This document shows, piece by piece, positions 23,375-28,982 of a DNA stretch of 64,000 nt. The position numbers and the translations under genes were made by a program. Origin of the DNA: Streptosporangium sandarakinum (GTDB lineage: Bacteria; Actinomycetota; Actinomycetes; Streptosporangiales; Streptosporangiaceae); the NCBI RefSeq assembly GCF_013409935.1, contig NZ_JACCCO010000001.1, positions 1,364,001 through 1,428,000 of the forward strand. The letters run 5' to 3'. Below the pieces are notes generated by a model that worked only from the letters and a program-made list of their open reading frames with translations, made no database searches and was not told the origin of the DNA. Numbering within the stretch: position 1 is the first letter of the stretch; every line of letters starts with the position of its first letter.

Positions 23375-24070
23375 TCAGGCCGGGGCCATGAAGGTGCCCG
23401 GGCTGCCGTCGGTGGCCCGCCATTCCGGGCCGCGCTCCCGGCTCGCCCCGGCCAGTGCCTCGCGGACCCCTTCGGCGTCCTTGTCCGTGGCGTAGACGGG
23501 AGTGCCGGGCTGCTGGCGCCAGGAGTCGTCCAGGCCGCCGGCGTCGACCGGGTCGAAGCCGAGCTGGTCGACCAGGTCCATGACGACCCTTTTCGCGGCC
23601 TCGTCGTCGCCTGCGACCGGCAGGGCCACGCGCCCCGGGGCCCCGGCGGGACGGCCGTGCTCGGCGAGGTGCCGGGCGTAGATGTTGTTGAACGCCTTGA
23701 TCACCGGACGGCCGAGGCGCTTTTCCACCCAGCGGCTCTCCGGCAGGCCGGACTCGATCTCCTTGATGCGGCCGTCACGCTGCCGGGGGTAGTAGTTGCC
23801 GGTGTCGACGACGACCACGTCGTCCGGCACCCCGTCGAAGAGGCCGGAAGGCAGCTCGGGCACCCGGCACTCCGGGATCGTGATCACGACGAGGTCGGCC
23901 CCGCGCGGCGCCTCCTCGACGGTCACCGCCTTCGCCCCGGTCTCCGAGGCCAGGTCGGCGAGGGTCTGCGGGCCGCGCGAGTTGGCCACCGTCACCTCGT
24001 GACCGAGGTCCGTCAGCCGCCGGGTGAGGGCGCCGCCGATGTTTCCGGCGCCGATGATGCCGATCCTCAT
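23375..24070 (-). CDS. NADPH-dependent F420 reductase-like oxidoreductase
   Basis: 231 residues beginning directly with a Rossmann NADP-binding motif MRIGIIGAGNIGGALTRRL, then VANSRGPQTLADLA, where the Ser-Arg after the second strand suggests NADP(H) preference. The F420-dependent NADP reductase/YqcG-like fold follows (IKAFNNIYARHLAE, LPVAGDDEAAKRVVMDLVDQLGFDPVDAGGL). It may transfer hydride between NADPH and F420 or a related cofactor; close homologues are annotated generically. Confidence 0.78.
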   Translation of the reverse strand: MRIGIIGAGNIGGALTRRLTDLGHEVTVANSRGPQTLADLASETGAKAVTVEEAPRGADLVVITIPECRVPELPSGLFDGVPDDVVVVDTGNYYPRQRDGRIKEIESGLPESRWVEKRLGRPVIKAFNNIYARHLAEHGRPAGAPGRVALPVAGDDEAAKRVVMDLVDQLGFDPVDAGGLDDSWRQQPGTPVYATDKDAEGVREALAGASRERGPEWRATDGSPGTFMAPA

Positions 24071-24302
24071 GGTCGCTCCAGGGATTCTCCGGGAATGCGG
24101 CGTGGCCGTCCGCTCCGGGCCCCGGGACGAGCGGGCCGGCGCGGCCCCGGACGGGCCGTGGAGGCGGGCGCCACCGGAAAACCGATCGTACGCGAAATGG
24201 CCGCCGTCGCGCGTTCCGCGCCACGCAAAGGAATTCCCCTCCGGATTCCGGAGCGATTAACGGTGATTCGAGACGAGACGGCGCGGACCGGAATTCCGGA
24301 AC

Positions 24303-24332
24303 GCGTGCGGCGGGCGGGTGCCCGCCGCACGC
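24303..24332 (-). terminator. Hairpin just downstream of the small Cys peptide gene
   Basis: GCGTGCGGCGGGC (24303-24315) and GCCCGCCGCACGC (24320-24332) form a perfect 13-bp stem with a GGGT loop, starting 10 bp past the peptide's stop. No T-run follows, as is common in GC-rich actinomycetes. Confidence 0.65.
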
Positions 24333-24342
24333 CGGACGCGGA

Positions 24343-24504
24343 TCAGCAGCAGGGACGCCTGCCGCCGTCGGCCTTCGCGCCGGTCCAGACGCCGTCGCCG
24401 CCACATCCGGACACGCAGCTGCCCTTGACGGGCGTCGCGTGCGCGGTCGCCTTACGGCCGAGAAGGGAGATGATCCGGTCGGTGACGCCGTTGACGAGCT
24501 TCAT
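24343..24504 (-). CDS. Putative secreted Cys-rich peptide precursor (53 aa)
   Basis: Minus-strand ORF from the ATG at 24504 to a TGA at 24343-24345, with ribosome binding site AAAGG eight bases upstream. Residues 1-23 (MKLVNGVTDRIISLLGRKAT...) form an amphipathic leader-like helix ending in Ala-Thr-Ala-His-Ala, an A-x-A signal-peptidase-type site. The remaining ~30 residues are Gly-rich, with cysteines at 30, 34, 52 and 53 and a terminal Pro-Cys-Cys. Its own promoter and terminator make it a single-gene unit directly downstream of the S26 peptidase/ABC/thioredoxin/MauE operon. Function inferred from context: a bacteriocin-like or signalling disulfide peptide. Confidence 0.6.
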   Translation of the reverse strand: MKLVNGVTDRIISLLGRKATAHATPVKGSCVSGCGGDGVWTGAKADGGRRPCC

Positions 24505-24545
24505 CTCAGAGACCTTTCGCCGGAACGGTCATTAATTTATCCATA

Positions 24546-24574
24546 GTCTTACTTGCATCAACTAAATACGTCAA
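24546..24574 (-). promoter_or_regulatory. Candidate promoter of the small Cys peptide gene
   Basis: Minus strand: -35 TTGACG (24574-24569), 17-bp spacer, -10-like TAAGAC (24551-24546), within an AT-rich segment (24530-24595) that stands out locally. It would give a 5' leader of about 35 bases. The -35 is strong, the -10 weak. Confidence 0.45.
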
Positions 24575-24579
24575 TGCAC

Positions 24580-25038
24580 TCATTGTGAATTATTTCCGGC
24601 AGTCTCTCCGAGCCGCCTCACCACGACGCCCTGTATCCGGGCGGCGGCGAAGAATCCCTCCTGGCGGGAGTCCACGCTGTGCCCAGGATTGTCCCCGAGC
24701 AGCACGAACCGGTCGCTCGGCACCGGCGTGCCCGCGGCCCCGGCCAGCGCCGGCCCGAGGCCGTCCGGCACCGGGTCGCCCGGCACGGCCACCACCCGTT
24801 TGATCAGCAGCCGGCGGGCCGGCCGCCGCGGCCGGACGCCCTCGTACTCGGGCAGCACCACGACCACCTGCCCCGGCCGGACCCGCCCCGGCCGCACCGG
24901 CCTGGCCAGCACGCGGTCCCCGTCCGCGAAGGCCGGTTCCATGCTGGGCCCGCTGACCGTCGCCACCACGAGCCGCCGCGCCCACCGGAGCGCCGCAGCG
25001 GCGGCCACGGCCAGGGCCGCGGGGATCAGCCACCACAC
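24580..25038 (-). CDS. S26 family signal peptidase
   Basis: 152 residues from the GTG at 25038. The longer reading from a GTG at 25119 adds 27 Gly/Arg-rich residues encoded by repeat copies, so it is disfavoured. One N-terminal membrane helix (WWLIPAALAVAAAAAL) precedes the catalytic motif SGPSMEPAF (Ser32). The Lys general base is in LLIKRVVAVPGD (Lys80), and LLGDNPGHSVDSR is box E. It is a type I signal peptidase-like enzyme cleaving on the outer face. As the last gene of the ABC/TlpA/MauE operon it may process the small peptide encoded next. Confidence 0.85.
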   Translation of the reverse strand: MWWLIPAALAVAAAAALRWARRLVVATVSGPSMEPAFADGDRVLARPVRPGRVRPGQVVVVLPEYEGVRPRRPARRLLIKRVVAVPGDPVPDGLGPALAGAAGTPVPSDRFVLLGDNPGHSVDSRQEGFFAAARIQGVVVRRLGETAGNNSQ

Positions 25039-25129
25039 GTCACACCACCGTCCTCGTCCCGTCCCGCCGGTCCCACATCGCACCGCCGTCCCCGTGCCGG
25101 ACCGCCGACTCCATGTCACACCGCCGTCC
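25016..25129 (-). repeat. Three 38-bp tandem repeats across the ABC transporter/signal peptidase junction
   Basis: The word GGACGGYGGTG (minus strand) recurs with its end at 25129, 25091 and 25053, exactly 38 bp apart. The first copy holds the ABC stop codon followed by C and ATG; the third holds TGA-C-GTG, the likely peptidase start. The original stop/start junction seems to have been triplicated, inserting 76 bp between two once-adjacent genes. Confidence 0.75.
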
Positions 25130-27035
25130 TGGACCGGTATCCCGACGCCTGCAGGGTGAACAGCCGCGCGTACTCACCGCCGGCGGCGACCAGCTCGTCA
25201 TGGCTCCCCTCCTCCACGACCACGCCGCCGGACAGCACCACGATGCGGTCGGCGTCCCGGACCGCGCCCAGGCGGTGCGAGATCAGCAGGCTCGTGAGGC
25301 CGTTCCGGTACTCCTTGAGGCTCGTGTGCACCTCGTGCTCGGCGGCGGCGTCCAGCCCGGCGCTCGGCTCGTCGAGGATGACGAGGTCCCGGTCGGCGCG
25401 CATGAAGGCGCGGGCCAGCGCGACGCGCTGCCGCTGCCCGCCGGACAGGCCGACCCCGACCGCCTCCCTGTCCACGTCGCTGGTGAACCGGCGGCTCAGC
25501 AGGGTCCGGTAACCGTCCGGCAGCGCGGCGAGCGTCTCGTGCACCCCCGCCCGCCGCGCCGCCGCCTCGATGCGGTCCTGGTCGTGCAGCGCGTCCAGGT
25601 CGCCGACGCCGACGTTCTCGGCCGCGGTCAGCTCGTAGTCCATGTAGTCCTGGAACACGGCGCTGATCCGCCCGCGCAGCGCGTCCGGATCGGCCTCGCG
25701 GATGTCGACGCCGTCCCACAGCACCGCGCCCCGGGTCGGGTCGTAGAAGCGGCACAGCAGCTTGACCAGCGTGGACTTTCCCGCGCCGTTGAGCCCCACC
25801 AGGGCGACGGCCCGGCCGTACGGGATCACCAGGTTCACCCCGCGCAGCACCCAGGGGTGGCCCTCGGAGTAGCGGAACCACACGTCCCGCAGCTCGATGC
25901 CCCGCCGCAGCGGCGGCAGCGCGGCCGGCCGTACGGCCACCGGCAGGTCCGGGACGCCCCGCAGCACCGTGAGGTAGTGCCGGAAGAGCAACAGCGACTC
26001 GTGCGCCCTGGCGATGTCCTGCGCCACGCCGCCGAGCGCCGCCTGCACGCCCATGACGGCGGTGATGAACATCGCGACGTCACCGACGCTCAGCCGGCCG
26101 GCGCGCGCCGCCGCGACCGCCCACACCAGTCCCGGCACCAGCACCGCGACACCGACCAGGCCCAGGCCCGCCCGGACGGCGAACTCCCGGCGGTCCACCC
26201 GGCGCTGCGTCGCCTCGTGCGCCCGCCGTTCCGCCAGCATCCGGCCGCGCACGAACCCGCCCAGGCCGAGGAGGCGCACCTCCTTGGCGGCCCGTTCCGT
26301 CGCGAGCAGGTCGCGGTAGAAGATCTCCCGCCGCTCCGCCGGGGTGATCTCCCAGAACGCGGCCGCGCGGTGTTTGCCGAGCAGGAGCTCGGCGGCGAGC
26401 ACCGGGACGCCGGACAGCAGCACGATCACCGCCATCAGCGGGCTCAGCGCGCTCACCAGGCCGAGCAGCCCGGAGATCGTGAGGGCGCTGCGCGAGACGC
26501 CGAGGAGTCCCTCGATCACCCGGTTCGGCCCGCGCCCGCCGGACTCGTCGGCGAGCTGCAGCCGGTCGAGGAAGGCCGGGTCCTCGAACGGGGCGAGACC
26601 GCGGATCCGCGCCACCGCGGTGAACAGCCGTTCCTTGGCGAGGGCGCCGATCTCCCGTTCCACCTCGGCGCGCAGGAACGTCCCGGCGGCGGTCAGCGCC
26701 ATCGACCCGAGCACCGTGGCGCCCAGGGCCCCGGCGAGCAGCGCGGGCTCACCGAGACCGGAGTCCCCGGTCAGGCCGTTGACGATCGCCCGGGTGAGCC
26801 ACGCGGTGCCGACCGGCAGCGCCGCCGACACCAGGGTCACGACGACGTAGAGCGCCAGCCGCCCGGGAGCCGCCCGTACGGCGAGCCGCGCCGCCTCGAC
26901 GATCCGGGCCGCCGTGCCGTCACCGGTTCGCGGCGGGGTCGCGGGCTCGCCGCCGGTCGGCGACGGGACGGTGAGACCGGCGGGACCGGCGAAACCGGAC
27001 TCGGGCTCCTCCCCGGTCCCCGACGGGCCGGTCAT
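25116..27035 (-). CDS. ABC transporter, fused permease and ATP-binding domains
   Basis: 639 residues. Residues ~40-340 hold the type-1 exporter membrane domain (about six helices). The nucleotide-binding domain follows with Walker A (VGLNGAGKST), Q-loop region (AVFQDYMDYE), signature LSGGQRQRVALARAF, Walker B (LVILDEPSA) and switch His (LLISHRLG). There is no N-terminal C39 peptidase domain, so cleavage of a substrate must be done by another enzyme, consistent with the S26 peptidase downstream. Its ATG overlaps the thioredoxin gene stop. Likely a peptide exporter, by context. Confidence 0.88.
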   Translation of the reverse strand: MTGPSGTGEEPESGFAGPAGLTVPSPTGGEPATPPRTGDGTAARIVEAARLAVRAAPGRLALYVVVTLVSAALPVGTAWLTRAIVNGLTGDSGLGEPALLAGALGATVLGSMALTAAGTFLRAEVEREIGALAKERLFTAVARIRGLAPFEDPAFLDRLQLADESGGRGPNRVIEGLLGVSRSALTISGLLGLVSALSPLMAVIVLLSGVPVLAAELLLGKHRAAAFWEITPAERREIFYRDLLATERAAKEVRLLGLGGFVRGRMLAERRAHEATQRRVDRREFAVRAGLGLVGVAVLVPGLVWAVAAARAGRLSVGDVAMFITAVMGVQAALGGVAQDIARAHESLLLFRHYLTVLRGVPDLPVAVRPAALPPLRRGIELRDVWFRYSEGHPWVLRGVNLVIPYGRAVALVGLNGAGKSTLVKLLCRFYDPTRGAVLWDGVDIREADPDALRGRISAVFQDYMDYELTAAENVGVGDLDALHDQDRIEAAARRAGVHETLAALPDGYRTLLSRRFTSDVDREAVGVGLSGGQRQRVALARAFMRADRDLVILDEPSAGLDAAAEHEVHTSLKEYRNGLTSLLISHRLGAVRDADRIVVLSGGVVVEEGSHDELVAAGGEYARLFTLQASGYRSRTAV

Positions 27036-27550
27036 GGCCTCGCCGCCGCCAGGCCCGGCTCGTATCCGCTGGCCCGGATGGTGTGGTCGGGGTTGAGGAC
27101 GCAGAACGCCGGGGTCGCGTAGAGATGGAAGGCGACCTGCACCGGGCCGCGTTTCTCCTCCACCACGACCCGCGCCACCGGGTCGAGCCGTGACGTCATC
27201 TCCACCGCCAGCTCCGGCGTGCCGCGCACCACCGCGAGGACCTGCCGCGGGTCGGACCTCCGCTCCGCCTCGGCGATGAACTGCGGCAGGCGGTCGTGGC
27301 AGACCTCGCAGTTCCAGTTGAAGAAGCCGACGTACACCTCGCCGGTGAGGTCCGCCCGCGTCAGCGGCTCGCCGTCGAGCGTGACCGTGGCGAAGTCACC
27401 GATCTCCACGCCGTCCGGCAGCATCGGCGGCACGCCCGCCTCGACCTCCGCCAGCCGGTCGGCCTGCTCCCTGACCTTGCGCAGCAGGCCGACGGTGAGC
27501 AGCAGGTTGAGCAGCGAGACCACGGTGAGTACGGCGACGAGAGCGGTCAT
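27032..27550 (-). CDS. Membrane-anchored TlpA/MauD-like thioredoxin
   Basis: 172 residues. An N-terminal membrane anchor (residues 3-22, LVAVLTVVSLLNLLLTVGLL) and a short coiled segment lead to a thioredoxin-fold domain with active-site Cys81-Glu-Val-Cys84 (FFNWNCEVCHDRLPQF) and the cis-Pro loop YATPAFCVLNPD. It would oxidise, reduce or isomerise disulfides outside the membrane. The ribosome binding site AGGAG precedes it and it overlaps the ABC gene by ATGA. MauD-type proteins pair with MauE-type membrane partners, which is the gene upstream. Confidence 0.85.
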   Translation of the reverse strand: MTALVAVLTVVSLLNLLLTVGLLRKVREQADRLAEVEAGVPPMLPDGVEIGDFATVTLDGEPLTRADLTGEVYVGFFNWNCEVCHDRLPQFIAEAERRSDPRQVLAVVRGTPELAVEMTSRLDPVARVVVEEKRGPVQVAFHLYATPAFCVLNPDHTIRASGYEPGLAAARP

Positions 27551-28106
27551 GGGTTCTCCTATCGCTTGTGTTCCGCGCCGGCCGGAACAGCGCGACGAGG
27601 TCGTCGATCACGGTCACCAGGACGCCCGCGACGAGCCCGGCCAGCCCGGCGACCGCCGCCTCGCCGAACTCCGGGCCCCGCCCGGCGGGAGAGGCGGCGG
27701 AGGCCGCCAGGCCCAGCAGCGCCACCGCGACGAGCACCAGGTTGCGGACCACGTGGCCGGCGCCCAGCGGCGTCTCGGACCGGCCGAAGCACGAGCACGG
27801 TTCCCGGTTGCCCCGGGCGAGCGACATCGCGATGCCGGCGGTGAAGGCGGCCAGCAGCGCCGCGGCCACACCGAACCCCGCCGTCCCCGCCGCCCGCGCC
27901 GGTACGGCCAGCAGCAGCACGATCACCACCTCGGCCGCCGCGAACGCCAGTGCCGCCGGCCGTACCAGGCCCGAGGGCAGCACCTCCATCCGGCGCAGCG
28001 ACCGCACGAAGGCGCCGAACCGGCCGGGACCGCCCAGCTTCCCGGCGGCGGCGATGAGGAAGATGACACCGATCATGAATCGGCACCCGATGACCAGATG
28101 GACCAC
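27396..28106 (-). CDS. MauE/DoxX-like redox-associated membrane protein
   Basis: About 236 residues from the GTG at 28106, preceded by GGAAGGCGGAG. Four hydrophobic helices: FMIGVIFLIAAAGKLGG (the DoxX-like start), PAALAFAAAEVVIVLLLAVP, GFGVAAALLAAFTAGIAMSL and LVLVAVALLGLAASA. A PCSCFG motif lies between helices 3 and 4 and is probably the redox-active pair. The conserved part ends near VIDDLVALFRPARN, but no stop occurs until 27396, so the tail (Arg/Gly-rich) overlaps the thioredoxin gene by 155 bp. Either the overlap is real or a frameshift removes a stop near 27559. Confidence 0.75.
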   Translation of the reverse strand: MVHLVIGCRFMIGVIFLIAAAGKLGGPGRFGAFVRSLRRMEVLPSGLVRPAALAFAAAEVVIVLLLAVPARAAGTAGFGVAAALLAAFTAGIAMSLARGNREPCSCFGRSETPLGAGHVVRNLVLVAVALLGLAASAASPAGRGPEFGEAAVAGLAGLVAGVLVTVIDDLVALFRPARNTSDRRTHDRSRRRTHRGLAAQPAAHRRPAAQGQGAGRPAGGGRGGRAADAAGRRGDR

Positions 28107-28341
28107 GGCTCCGCCTTCCGGAATGGGGGGGAGGAAGACCGGCGGACGTATCAGCGGACATGTCAGCAGAGAAATGATGATCTTAACCGGACGATGACAC
28201 GGTATGTCGATACACCGCATTCCGCCAGCCCCTCCCGCACCGGCGTTCGTGTCCCGGGTGGAACCCGGAGAGCCGCGTGCCCGCCCTGTCCGGGTCACCG
28301 GGCGGACGGCGGGCGGGGGCGGCGGCACGGGCGGCTCCGGT

Positions 28342-28424
28342 CGCCCGTCCGCCCGCCCGCCCGCCCGCCCGTTCGCCCGTTCGTCCGTTCGTCCGTTCGT
28401 CCGTTCGTCCGTTCGTCCGTCCGG
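28342..28424 (+). repeat. Microsatellite of CCCG and 8-bp CCGTTCGT units
   Basis: A run of about five GCCC/CCCG tetranucleotides followed by five copies of CCGTTCGT-type octamers. It fills the middle of the 393-bp gap between the divergent MauE-like and DUF1992 genes. The left part of the gap (28107-28250) would hold the promoter of the redox/export operon; no clear -35/-10 is visible. Confidence 0.85.
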
Positions 28425-28499
28425 GCAGGGCCCGCCGGGGCGGCCGACGCCGGTGGCTATGCTCGGAAACGCCACTGTCCGGCGTGCTGGAGGCGGGCG

Positions 28500-28982
28500 A
28501 TGACGGAGCGCAGGCCACTCGGTGTCAACTTCGAGACGTGGGTCGACCGGCAGATCCGTGAGGCCGCGGAGCGCGGCGCGTTCGACGACCTGCCCGGCGC
28601 GGGCAAACCGCTGCCCGGCGAGGGCGAGCCGTACGAGGAGATGTGGTGGATCAAGCAGAAACTCCACTCGGAGGGCCTGTCGTTCCCGCTGCCCGGCACG
28701 CTCGCTCTGCGTAAGAAGGCCGAGGAGGCGCGGGCCGCGGCCGCCGAGGCGCGCTCGGAGGACGAGGTCCGCCGGACCATCGGGGAGATCAACGAGGAGA
28801 TCGTCGAGGGGCACCGCAAGGCCCTGTCCGGTCCCCCGCTGAACCTGATGCCCTTCGACGTCGAGGAGGTCGTCCGCGACTGGCGCGACCGTCACCCGGC
28901 CCGGGAGGAGACCCCGGGGCCCGAGCCCGCTCCCCCGCAGAGAAGGCGGGGGTTGTTCGGCCGGTTCCGCCGGAGAGGATGA
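28500..28982 (+). CDS. DUF1992 domain protein (DnaJC28-like conserved domain)
   Basis: 160 residues from the ATG at 28500 with a GGAGGCGG ribosome binding site. The DUF1992 core is clear: FETWVDRQIREAAERGAFDDLPGAGKPLPGEGEPYEEMWWIKQKL. A charged coiled segment (KKAEEARAAAAEARSEDEVRRTIGEINEEI) follows, then a basic Pro-rich tail. The function of this domain in bacteria is unknown. Confidence 0.85.
   Translation: MTERRPLGVNFETWVDRQIREAAERGAFDDLPGAGKPLPGEGEPYEEMWWIKQKLHSEGLSFPLPGTLALRKKAEEARAAAAEARSEDEVRRTIGEINEEIVEGHRKALSGPPLNLMPFDVEEVVRDWRDRHPAREETPGPEPAPPQRRRGLFGRFRRRG

Follow-up and report, generated by a model that had tools for sequence, protein, structure and literature searches.

A candidate redox and export cassette for small cysteine-rich peptides with a shared AxA leader in Streptosporangium sandarakinum and related actinomycetes

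Four genes and a small open reading frame (ORF) in a 64,000-nucleotide (nt) stretch of the Streptosporangium sandarakinum genome (contig NZ_JACCCO010000001.1, positions 1,364,001 to 1,428,000; hereafter the window) appear to make and export a small disulfide-bonded peptide by means of a non-Sec leader, an ATP-binding cassette (ABC) exporter, an S26 signal peptidase and a TlpA/MauE redox pair, a reading to which we give a probability of about 0.78. The genes lie on the minus strand in the order MauE, TlpA, ABC and S26, followed after 75 nt by a 53-residue ORF. An earlier reading made from the letters alone (the sequence-only reading) was right about these parts and very probably right about the pathway that connects them. 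We also consider it somewhat more likely than not that the cassette represents an unrecognised class, in which a ribosomal peptide is exported by an ABC protein without a peptidase of its own, trimmed at its non-Sec leader by a dedicated type I signal peptidase and matured by MauE and TlpA only, and in which a constant leader carries unlike cores across Streptosporangiaceae and Streptomyces.

The evidence that carries this reading comes from the relatives of the cassette. We compared 90 loci, consisting of 80 stretches around TlpA and ABC relatives (hand-picked from the matches listed to spread over genera, not drawn at random), nine of thirteen later loci, and the window itself. These loci were chosen by TlpA/ABC similarity, and therefore only MauE, S26 and the peptide count as independent finds. 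Listing the small Cys-rich ORFs in the fetched loci revealed a repeated leader with the consensus M..I.RLgDRLL..lVP..AxA, followed by a variable, Cys-rich core. A second-round leader profile of 24 positions, whose seed pattern required AxA, gave 89 matches at E ≤ 1 in 72 of the 85 loci searched; reversed frames gave none at this threshold and three at E ≤ 5. Two-fold cross-validation by locus recovered 88 matches (E ≤ 0.1) in 71 of 80 held-out loci, all with an even number of cysteines between 4 and 12, and no match in reversed frames. With the third and widest profile, built from 106 leaders excluding the window peptide and its sister, a leader together with at least four cysteines was found in 80/90 loci and again in no reversed frame. 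Neither the window peptide nor any of ten relatives matched NCBIfam, and in Pfam the same eleven gave no match save one weak one (E = 0.24). The libraries tried hold no curated name for this large family of actinomycete peptides.

The leader and the cassette are distributed together. Within the order, relatives of the TlpA protein (E ≤ 1e-8) occur in 127 of 249 genomes, those of the ABC protein (E ≤ 1e-80) in 129 and the leader in 116, such that 114 genomes have both leader and ABC gene, 15 the ABC gene only, 2 the leader only and 118 neither (p = 4e-51, uncorrected for relatedness). Genomes G077 and G240 have a leader match and no ABC relative at E ≤ 1e-80. By profile, MauE, TlpA, ABC and S26 are all present at 63 of the 90 loci; only MauE is missing at 16, only S26 at 8, and three loci have other gaps. 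At nine loci (L050, L054, L056, L062, L065, L068, L093, L110 and L118) a peptide gene sits directly upstream of TlpA in the usual place of MauE, and MauE was not detected in these stretches.

Beyond the order, a search of the class matched 38 of 394 genomes at E ≤ 0.01, with 16 in the window's taxonomic family and 22 outside it. Three of the latter, all from genus g74 (G416, G535 and G569), carry both cassette and leader, and the remaining 19 are mostly weak matches inside long frames. Within genus g74, 19 of 246 genomes matched at E ≤ 0.001, one of which (L207) is a long frame rather than a peptide; among 24 partly overlapping loci of this genus, TlpA lies within 1.5 kb in 18 and MauE in 17. 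A search across the phylum matched none of 246 genomes at E ≤ 0.001. When the ABC protein was compared with a plasmid collection by tblastn, it matched 29 records, 26 of them from Streptomyces and many from the same species. All six records that we opened (L225 to L230) have MauE, TlpA, ABC and S26 along with one or two leader peptides, which are labelled 'hypothetical protein' in four annotated records; in Streptomyces clavuligerus (L225), where the cassette sits on a large plasmid, two leader peptides lie directly upstream of MauE. In the same record, the annotation places an ATP-grasp domain protein about 3.5 kb downstream from the S26 gene. The sequence-only reading had proposed that S26, ABC, TlpA and MauE should co-occur with small Cys-rich ORFs bearing a leader of the DR type, and this check came out positive at 80/90 loci (71/80 under cross-validation), at genome level, where 114 of 249 have both leader and ABC gene, and in all six plasmid records opened. 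Homologous operons that consistently lack a small Cys peptide, the outcome named as refuting, did not appear.

The composition of the cores points to paired cysteines. Removal of L109 (E = 4.1, one Cys) reduced the 91 second-round matches at E ≤ 5 to 90, with L107 (E = 2.9, six Cys) kept, and all 90 cores retained have an even number of cysteines (4, 6, 8, 10 or 12), as do all 89 matches at E ≤ 1. These cores fall into 27 similarity clusters, each of them even. The same holds for 22 of 23 unique cores from the other genus of the class, after removal of the long frame L207, and for all eight leader peptides of the plasmid collection, after removal of an L228 match (E = 0.46) that has no Cys. 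The cores are unlike one another, mostly positive (68/90), and rich in Cys, Gly and Tyr, and there are sometimes two or three peptides per locus. At least eight cysteines are present in 43 of the 90 relatives, and the window peptide has four. One could instead suppose that the cysteines are kept reduced, in a metal-binding or redox-buffering peptide for which TlpA and MauE serve as a reductase pair. TlpA/ResA-type proteins often act as reductases, the TlpA profile matches ResA, and a Cys content of 19% would suit such a role; an even count maintained over 27 unlike clusters, however, argues for pairing rather than for sets of ligands, and the core sequences are very diverse. We regard a reduced peptide as hardly probable.

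The leaders also share their ending. Sixteen of the 90 fall outside the AxA seed pattern, and all of these have Ala at position -1, with Ala (11), Val (4) or Gly (1) at -3. A profile truncated ahead of this motif still retrieved only leaders that end in [AVG]xA (88 of 88, with Ala at -1 in all 88). Type I signal peptidases cut at AxA, and an [AVG]xA ending follows their -3/-1 rule; Sec substrates are the normal targets of S26 enzymes. This invites the explanation that the leader is simply a Sec signal peptide of the usual kind, that S26 is a spare signal peptidase and that the ABC protein moves something else. The leaders themselves speak against it: in their most hydrophobic 11-residue segment the mean hydropathy has a median of 0.82 over 90 leaders (range 0.11 to 2.24), charged D and R residues lie in mid-leader, and the window peptide has no hydrophobic segment at all. 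The ABC gene, moreover, is present in 114 of the 116 genomes that encode the leader. The family leaders are not Sec-like by these sequence measures, and a Sec-secreted peptide, which we list among the candidates rejected, is very unlikely.

The peptidase and the leader also go together locus by locus. By the third profile, 77 of 80 loci with S26 have a leader ORF containing four or more cysteines, as do 3 of 10 loci in which S26 was undetected (Fisher p = 1.7e-6, uncorrected for relatedness). Of the three loci that have S26 and gave no such match, L107 has Cys peptides that look leader-like on visual inspection, the stretch fetched for L079 stops about 0.6 kb before a leader match, and at L051 none was seen. 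The converse group, L094, L097 and L113, has leader peptides with S26 undetected within the fetched stretch, and another S26 may serve them. Seven loci have neither S26 nor leader, and four of these (L109, L120, L186 and L193) carry an ATP-grasp maturase, which at L109 matches TIGR04187 below its cut-off (E = 5.4e-85), together with a precursor ending like NTSTSCYAGSDTCRDDVCA. From their sequences, these four seem to encode a graspetide-type peptide that uses the same redox and export module. At the other three (L063, L116 and L189) neither an ATP-grasp maturase nor a precursor was found, and a search of the leaderless loci for the AxA/even-Cys pattern returned only apparently spurious frames. 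One of the three, L116, is a second MauE/ABC/TlpA locus of the sister species, without S26 and with no leader peptide found. Because four loci without S26 and leader pair the redox and export genes with ATP-grasp genes for ribosomally synthesized and post-translationally modified peptides (RiPPs), while loci with S26 pair them with the leader, the redox and export part looks like a module, and S26 looks like the component that travels with the AxA leader.

The loci with an ATP-grasp maturase bear on a further alternative, namely that the peptide is modified in other ways, for instance with thioethers, and that disulfides are secondary. Copies of the module without S26 sit beside a RiPP maturase, and the module is therefore compatible with modified peptides. 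Among the Pfam and NCBIfam matches listed, however, none of the five window proteins has a match above cut-off to a RiPP-modifying family, and under a coding-frame filter a BTAD regulator is the only gene family to turn up at more than 8 of 80 loci. The regulator family, assigned from the Pfam matches of two members, was found at 29 of the 80 loci with this filter and at 38 with a looser one; looser clustering also placed other gene families in up to 22 further loci. Further modification as the main maturation step is accordingly quite improbable, and disulfide formation by the redox pair is the reading that we carry forward.

The four cassette proteins fit the roles proposed for them. MauE scores 87.9 bits against PF07291 (cut-off 27), has five hydrophobic segments by hydropathy and belongs to a group in which the cysteines of the C.CFG motif are invariant (15 of 15 hand-picked relatives); its profile matched nothing in the PDB at E ≤ 1. 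The TlpA protein as a single sequence reaches 21.8 bits in Pfam, below the cut-off of 26. The profile of its relatives nevertheless matches thioredoxin structures in the PDB (best E = 3.4e-11), ResA-type proteins among them, and its CxxC motif and a later proline are invariant in 17 of 17 hand-picked sequences, so that the window protein shows both the motif and, by profile, the fold of a TlpA/ResA-type thioredoxin. Its single N-terminal hydrophobic segment suggests an N-terminal anchor.

In the ABC protein, which has Walker A and LSGGQ motifs, ABC_tran (PF00005, 103.9 bits) is the only Pfam domain over cut-off, the first hydrophobic segment begins at residue 55, and among the matches listed to models of peptidase-bearing exporters all start at residue 269 or later. 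These three observations lead us to conclude that it has no C39 domain, the mark of C39 peptide exporters (bacteriocin ABC, NHLP), for which no Pfam match was obtained either; the sequence-only reading had likewise described an exporter lacking its own peptidase. PADLOC gave matches on the ABC protein only. S26 scores above cut-off against both PF10502 (59.6 bits) and TIGR02227 (61.3 bits), its profile matches solved signal peptidases I in the PDB, and all 16 hand-picked sequences keep Ser59 and Lys107, as expected of a type I signal peptidase; hydropathy suggests a single N-terminal anchor. Four further S26 matches are present in the same genome, three of them stronger, and the cassette S26 is therefore an extra enzyme.

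The window peptide itself is a more distant case. Its leader retains the DR pair, the hydrophobic pattern and a KATAHA ending and has no proline, and its membership in the family is weaker than that of its relatives as judged by sequence. Within the window, the second-round profile ranks it first (E = 0.53). The third profile gives it E = 0.0053 among 1015 six-frame stretches, with the next best at 3, and when a single relative, L188, is left out of that profile it is still first, at E = 0.3, with the next at 3.3; L188 has an arginine at the same place as the window peptide. The scores leave room for the explanation that the ORF is a chance frame or a relic and that the true substrate is encoded elsewhere in the genome, in which case the family reading would stand for the relatives. 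The leader is indeed weak, as the value obtained without L188 shows, and with the peptide alone as query the ORF was found in only 2 of 16 genus genomes, its own and that of one sister species. With TlpA as query, one related locus was found, in S. pseudovulgare. Yet with each profile the best leader match of all 1015 frames in 64 kb falls precisely at the cassette, in an ORF that begins 75 nt from S26, reads ATAHA and then has four cysteines; the window holds the four cassette genes and an even-Cys core after AxA. The ORF is also better conserved than its surroundings: its DNA is 96.9% identical to that of the sister copy L047, and the flanks reach 89.5% and 91.6%. Taking position, ATAHA, the four cysteines and this conservation together with the E values, we find a chance ORF unlikely and consider the peptide most likely a divergent member of the family, which by the statistics alone would be likely and not certain.

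Several observations weigh against the proposed pathway and should be set beside this evidence. Among 13073 frames the second-round profile scores the window peptide at no better than E = 7, its best E value hinges on the single relative L188, and the leader search of genomes at E ≤ 0.01 misses it, which places the window's own genome among the 15 that have the ABC gene only. The ratio of nonsynonymous to synonymous substitution rates between the sister copies is 0.52 on 5 substitutions, too few to tell. The same genome has a second MauE/ABC/TlpA locus (L189), adjoining a BTAD regulator gene, at which no S26 or peptide was found. Among the 89 loci with TlpA, MauE is undetected in 17 and S26 in 9, and L214 is the one kept leader peptide whose cysteine count is odd (7). 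The leaders on which the truncated profile was trained descend from AxA seeds, so that its test of the leader ending is not fully independent. Finally, we infer the cleavage, export and disulfide chemistry from sequence.

With these points considered, the following route would account for the observations. The ribosome would make a 53-residue precursor whose leader (DR...L...ATAHA) is not of the Sec type. The ABC protein may recognise this leader and carry the precursor across the membrane, and S26 would then cut after AxA on the outer face of the membrane. The membrane-anchored TlpA-like thioredoxin, presumably kept oxidised by MauE, would pair the cysteines into disulfides, two in the window peptide and two to six in its relatives; the order of these steps could differ. 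The product probably acts outside the cell, most plausibly against competitors. We lean toward antagonistic or signalling peptides, with antagonism favoured, since unlike, basic, Cys-rich cores, the presence of several peptides per locus and the recurring BTAD regulator all fit such roles.

Several known systems resemble the cassette in part. Sublancin and other glycocins are exported Cys-rich peptides with disulfides and thioredoxin-like partners. Unlike in these systems, no C39 domain is present in the five window proteins and the leader ends in AxA instead of a double glycine. A glycocin was rejected as no glycosyltransferase matched among these five proteins, to which the search was limited. 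A C39-type bacteriocin was also rejected: there is no C39 domain, and the ATAHA ending of the window leader, like the [AVG]xA of its relatives, is not the GG, GA or GS of a double-glycine leader. The closest description found in a literature search that covered few subscription papers is the decRiPPter study (PMC7794033), with TMcin as an analogue. As described there, decRiPPter mined only Streptomyces with a strict filter that required transporter, peptidase and regulator genes, and it yielded three candidate families with mauE, one of them with mauD, and each with a predicted precursor of at least eight Cys; its authors suggest a role in precursor modification for the MauE homologs (PMC7794033). 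Streptomyces clusters of MauE with Cys-rich precursors had thus been flagged by that report in 2020 (PMC7794033). The words 'S26' and 'signal peptidase' do not occur in its main text, and its section 7 gives neither a leader motif nor a mechanism (PMC7794033). Its precursors have at least eight Cys (PMC7794033), those of the family reported here 4 to 12, and its mauE families may well be the same as ours.

In the reported TMcin pathway, a single peptide is handled at the membrane by a leader protease, a dedicated oxidoreductase and an ABC exporter, and the disulfide is required for activity (PMC13252029). This provides an experimental precedent for a membrane-matured disulfide peptide that uses other proteins, namely a DUF3267 site-2-type protease, a DsbA-like protein and a precursor with a transmembrane helix (PMC13252029), none of which were seen here. 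We rejected a TMcin system for the window, where the peptide has no hydrophobic segment and DUF3267 has no Pfam match among the five proteins. The cassette shares two protein families, MauE and MauD, with the maturation of methylamine dehydrogenase, in which they are thought, as cited in the decRiPPter report, to help form disulfides in a subunit (PMC7794033). The partners here are instead an exporter and a peptidase, and among the five window proteins, which were all that was searched in this genome for the purpose, there is no methylamine dehydrogenase subunit.

If the proposed pathway is correct, about half of the sampled genomes of the order (116/249), along with some Streptomyces, encode stable disulfide-bonded mini-proteins, of which the eleven compared with Pfam and NCBIfam matched no model. 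With a leader that stays constant, such peptides are easy to find and their cores easy to exchange in the laboratory. The cassette would also be an instance in which a signal peptidase, and not a C39 domain, serves an ABC exporter, and MauE, a family whose role is poorly known, would gain a testable oxidase function.

Table 1. Position of the cassette genes and of the parts of the precursor within the window
Feature	Position	Strand	Basis or remark
MauE-like membrane redox protein	27396..28106	-	GTG start; conserved part to about 27567; CSCFG; PF07291
TlpA/MauD-like thioredoxin, membrane-anchored, CEVC	27032..27550	-	Hydrophobic N-terminal segment and PDB profile matches
ABC exporter (membrane domain and ATPase), without C39 peptidase	25116..27035	-	PF00005, Walker A, LSGGQ
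S26 (type I) signal peptidase, Ser59/Lys107	24580..25119	-	PF10502, TIGR02227
Precursor peptide, 53 residues, 4 Cys	24343..24504	-	Best leader match in the window
Precursor leader, residues 1-23, ends ATAHA	24436..24504	-	Hidden Markov model and alignment by eye to the family leader
Predicted 30-residue core (TPVKGSC...PCC) and stop codon	24343..24435	-	After the AxA motif; putative cleavage site
Ribosome-binding-like GAAAGG, 9-14 nt before the precursor ORF	24513..24518	-	Printed sequence

The layout of the genes (Table 1) supports part of what had been said of it from the letters. MauE (PCSCFG), TlpA (CEVC), ABC and S26 had been described as one coupled operon, and all four genes lie where they had been placed. 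This is a fair description, since TlpA and ABC overlap by 4 nt, as do ABC and S26, and the MauE frame stays open for 155 nt inside TlpA. The four-Cys, 53-residue peptide was likewise confirmed directly after the operon. Its description as an independent unit did not gain support in the same way, in that no promoter- or terminator-like sites were found in 24000-28500, a result that neither shows nor excludes a separate unit for the peptide. Two further features of the region concern MauE: its frame runs on through 27396-27566 with no stop at the usual end, which may reflect a lost stop codon or a sequence error, and the gap upstream of the gene contains, at 28346-28425, a simple repeat of cgttcgtc-type units.

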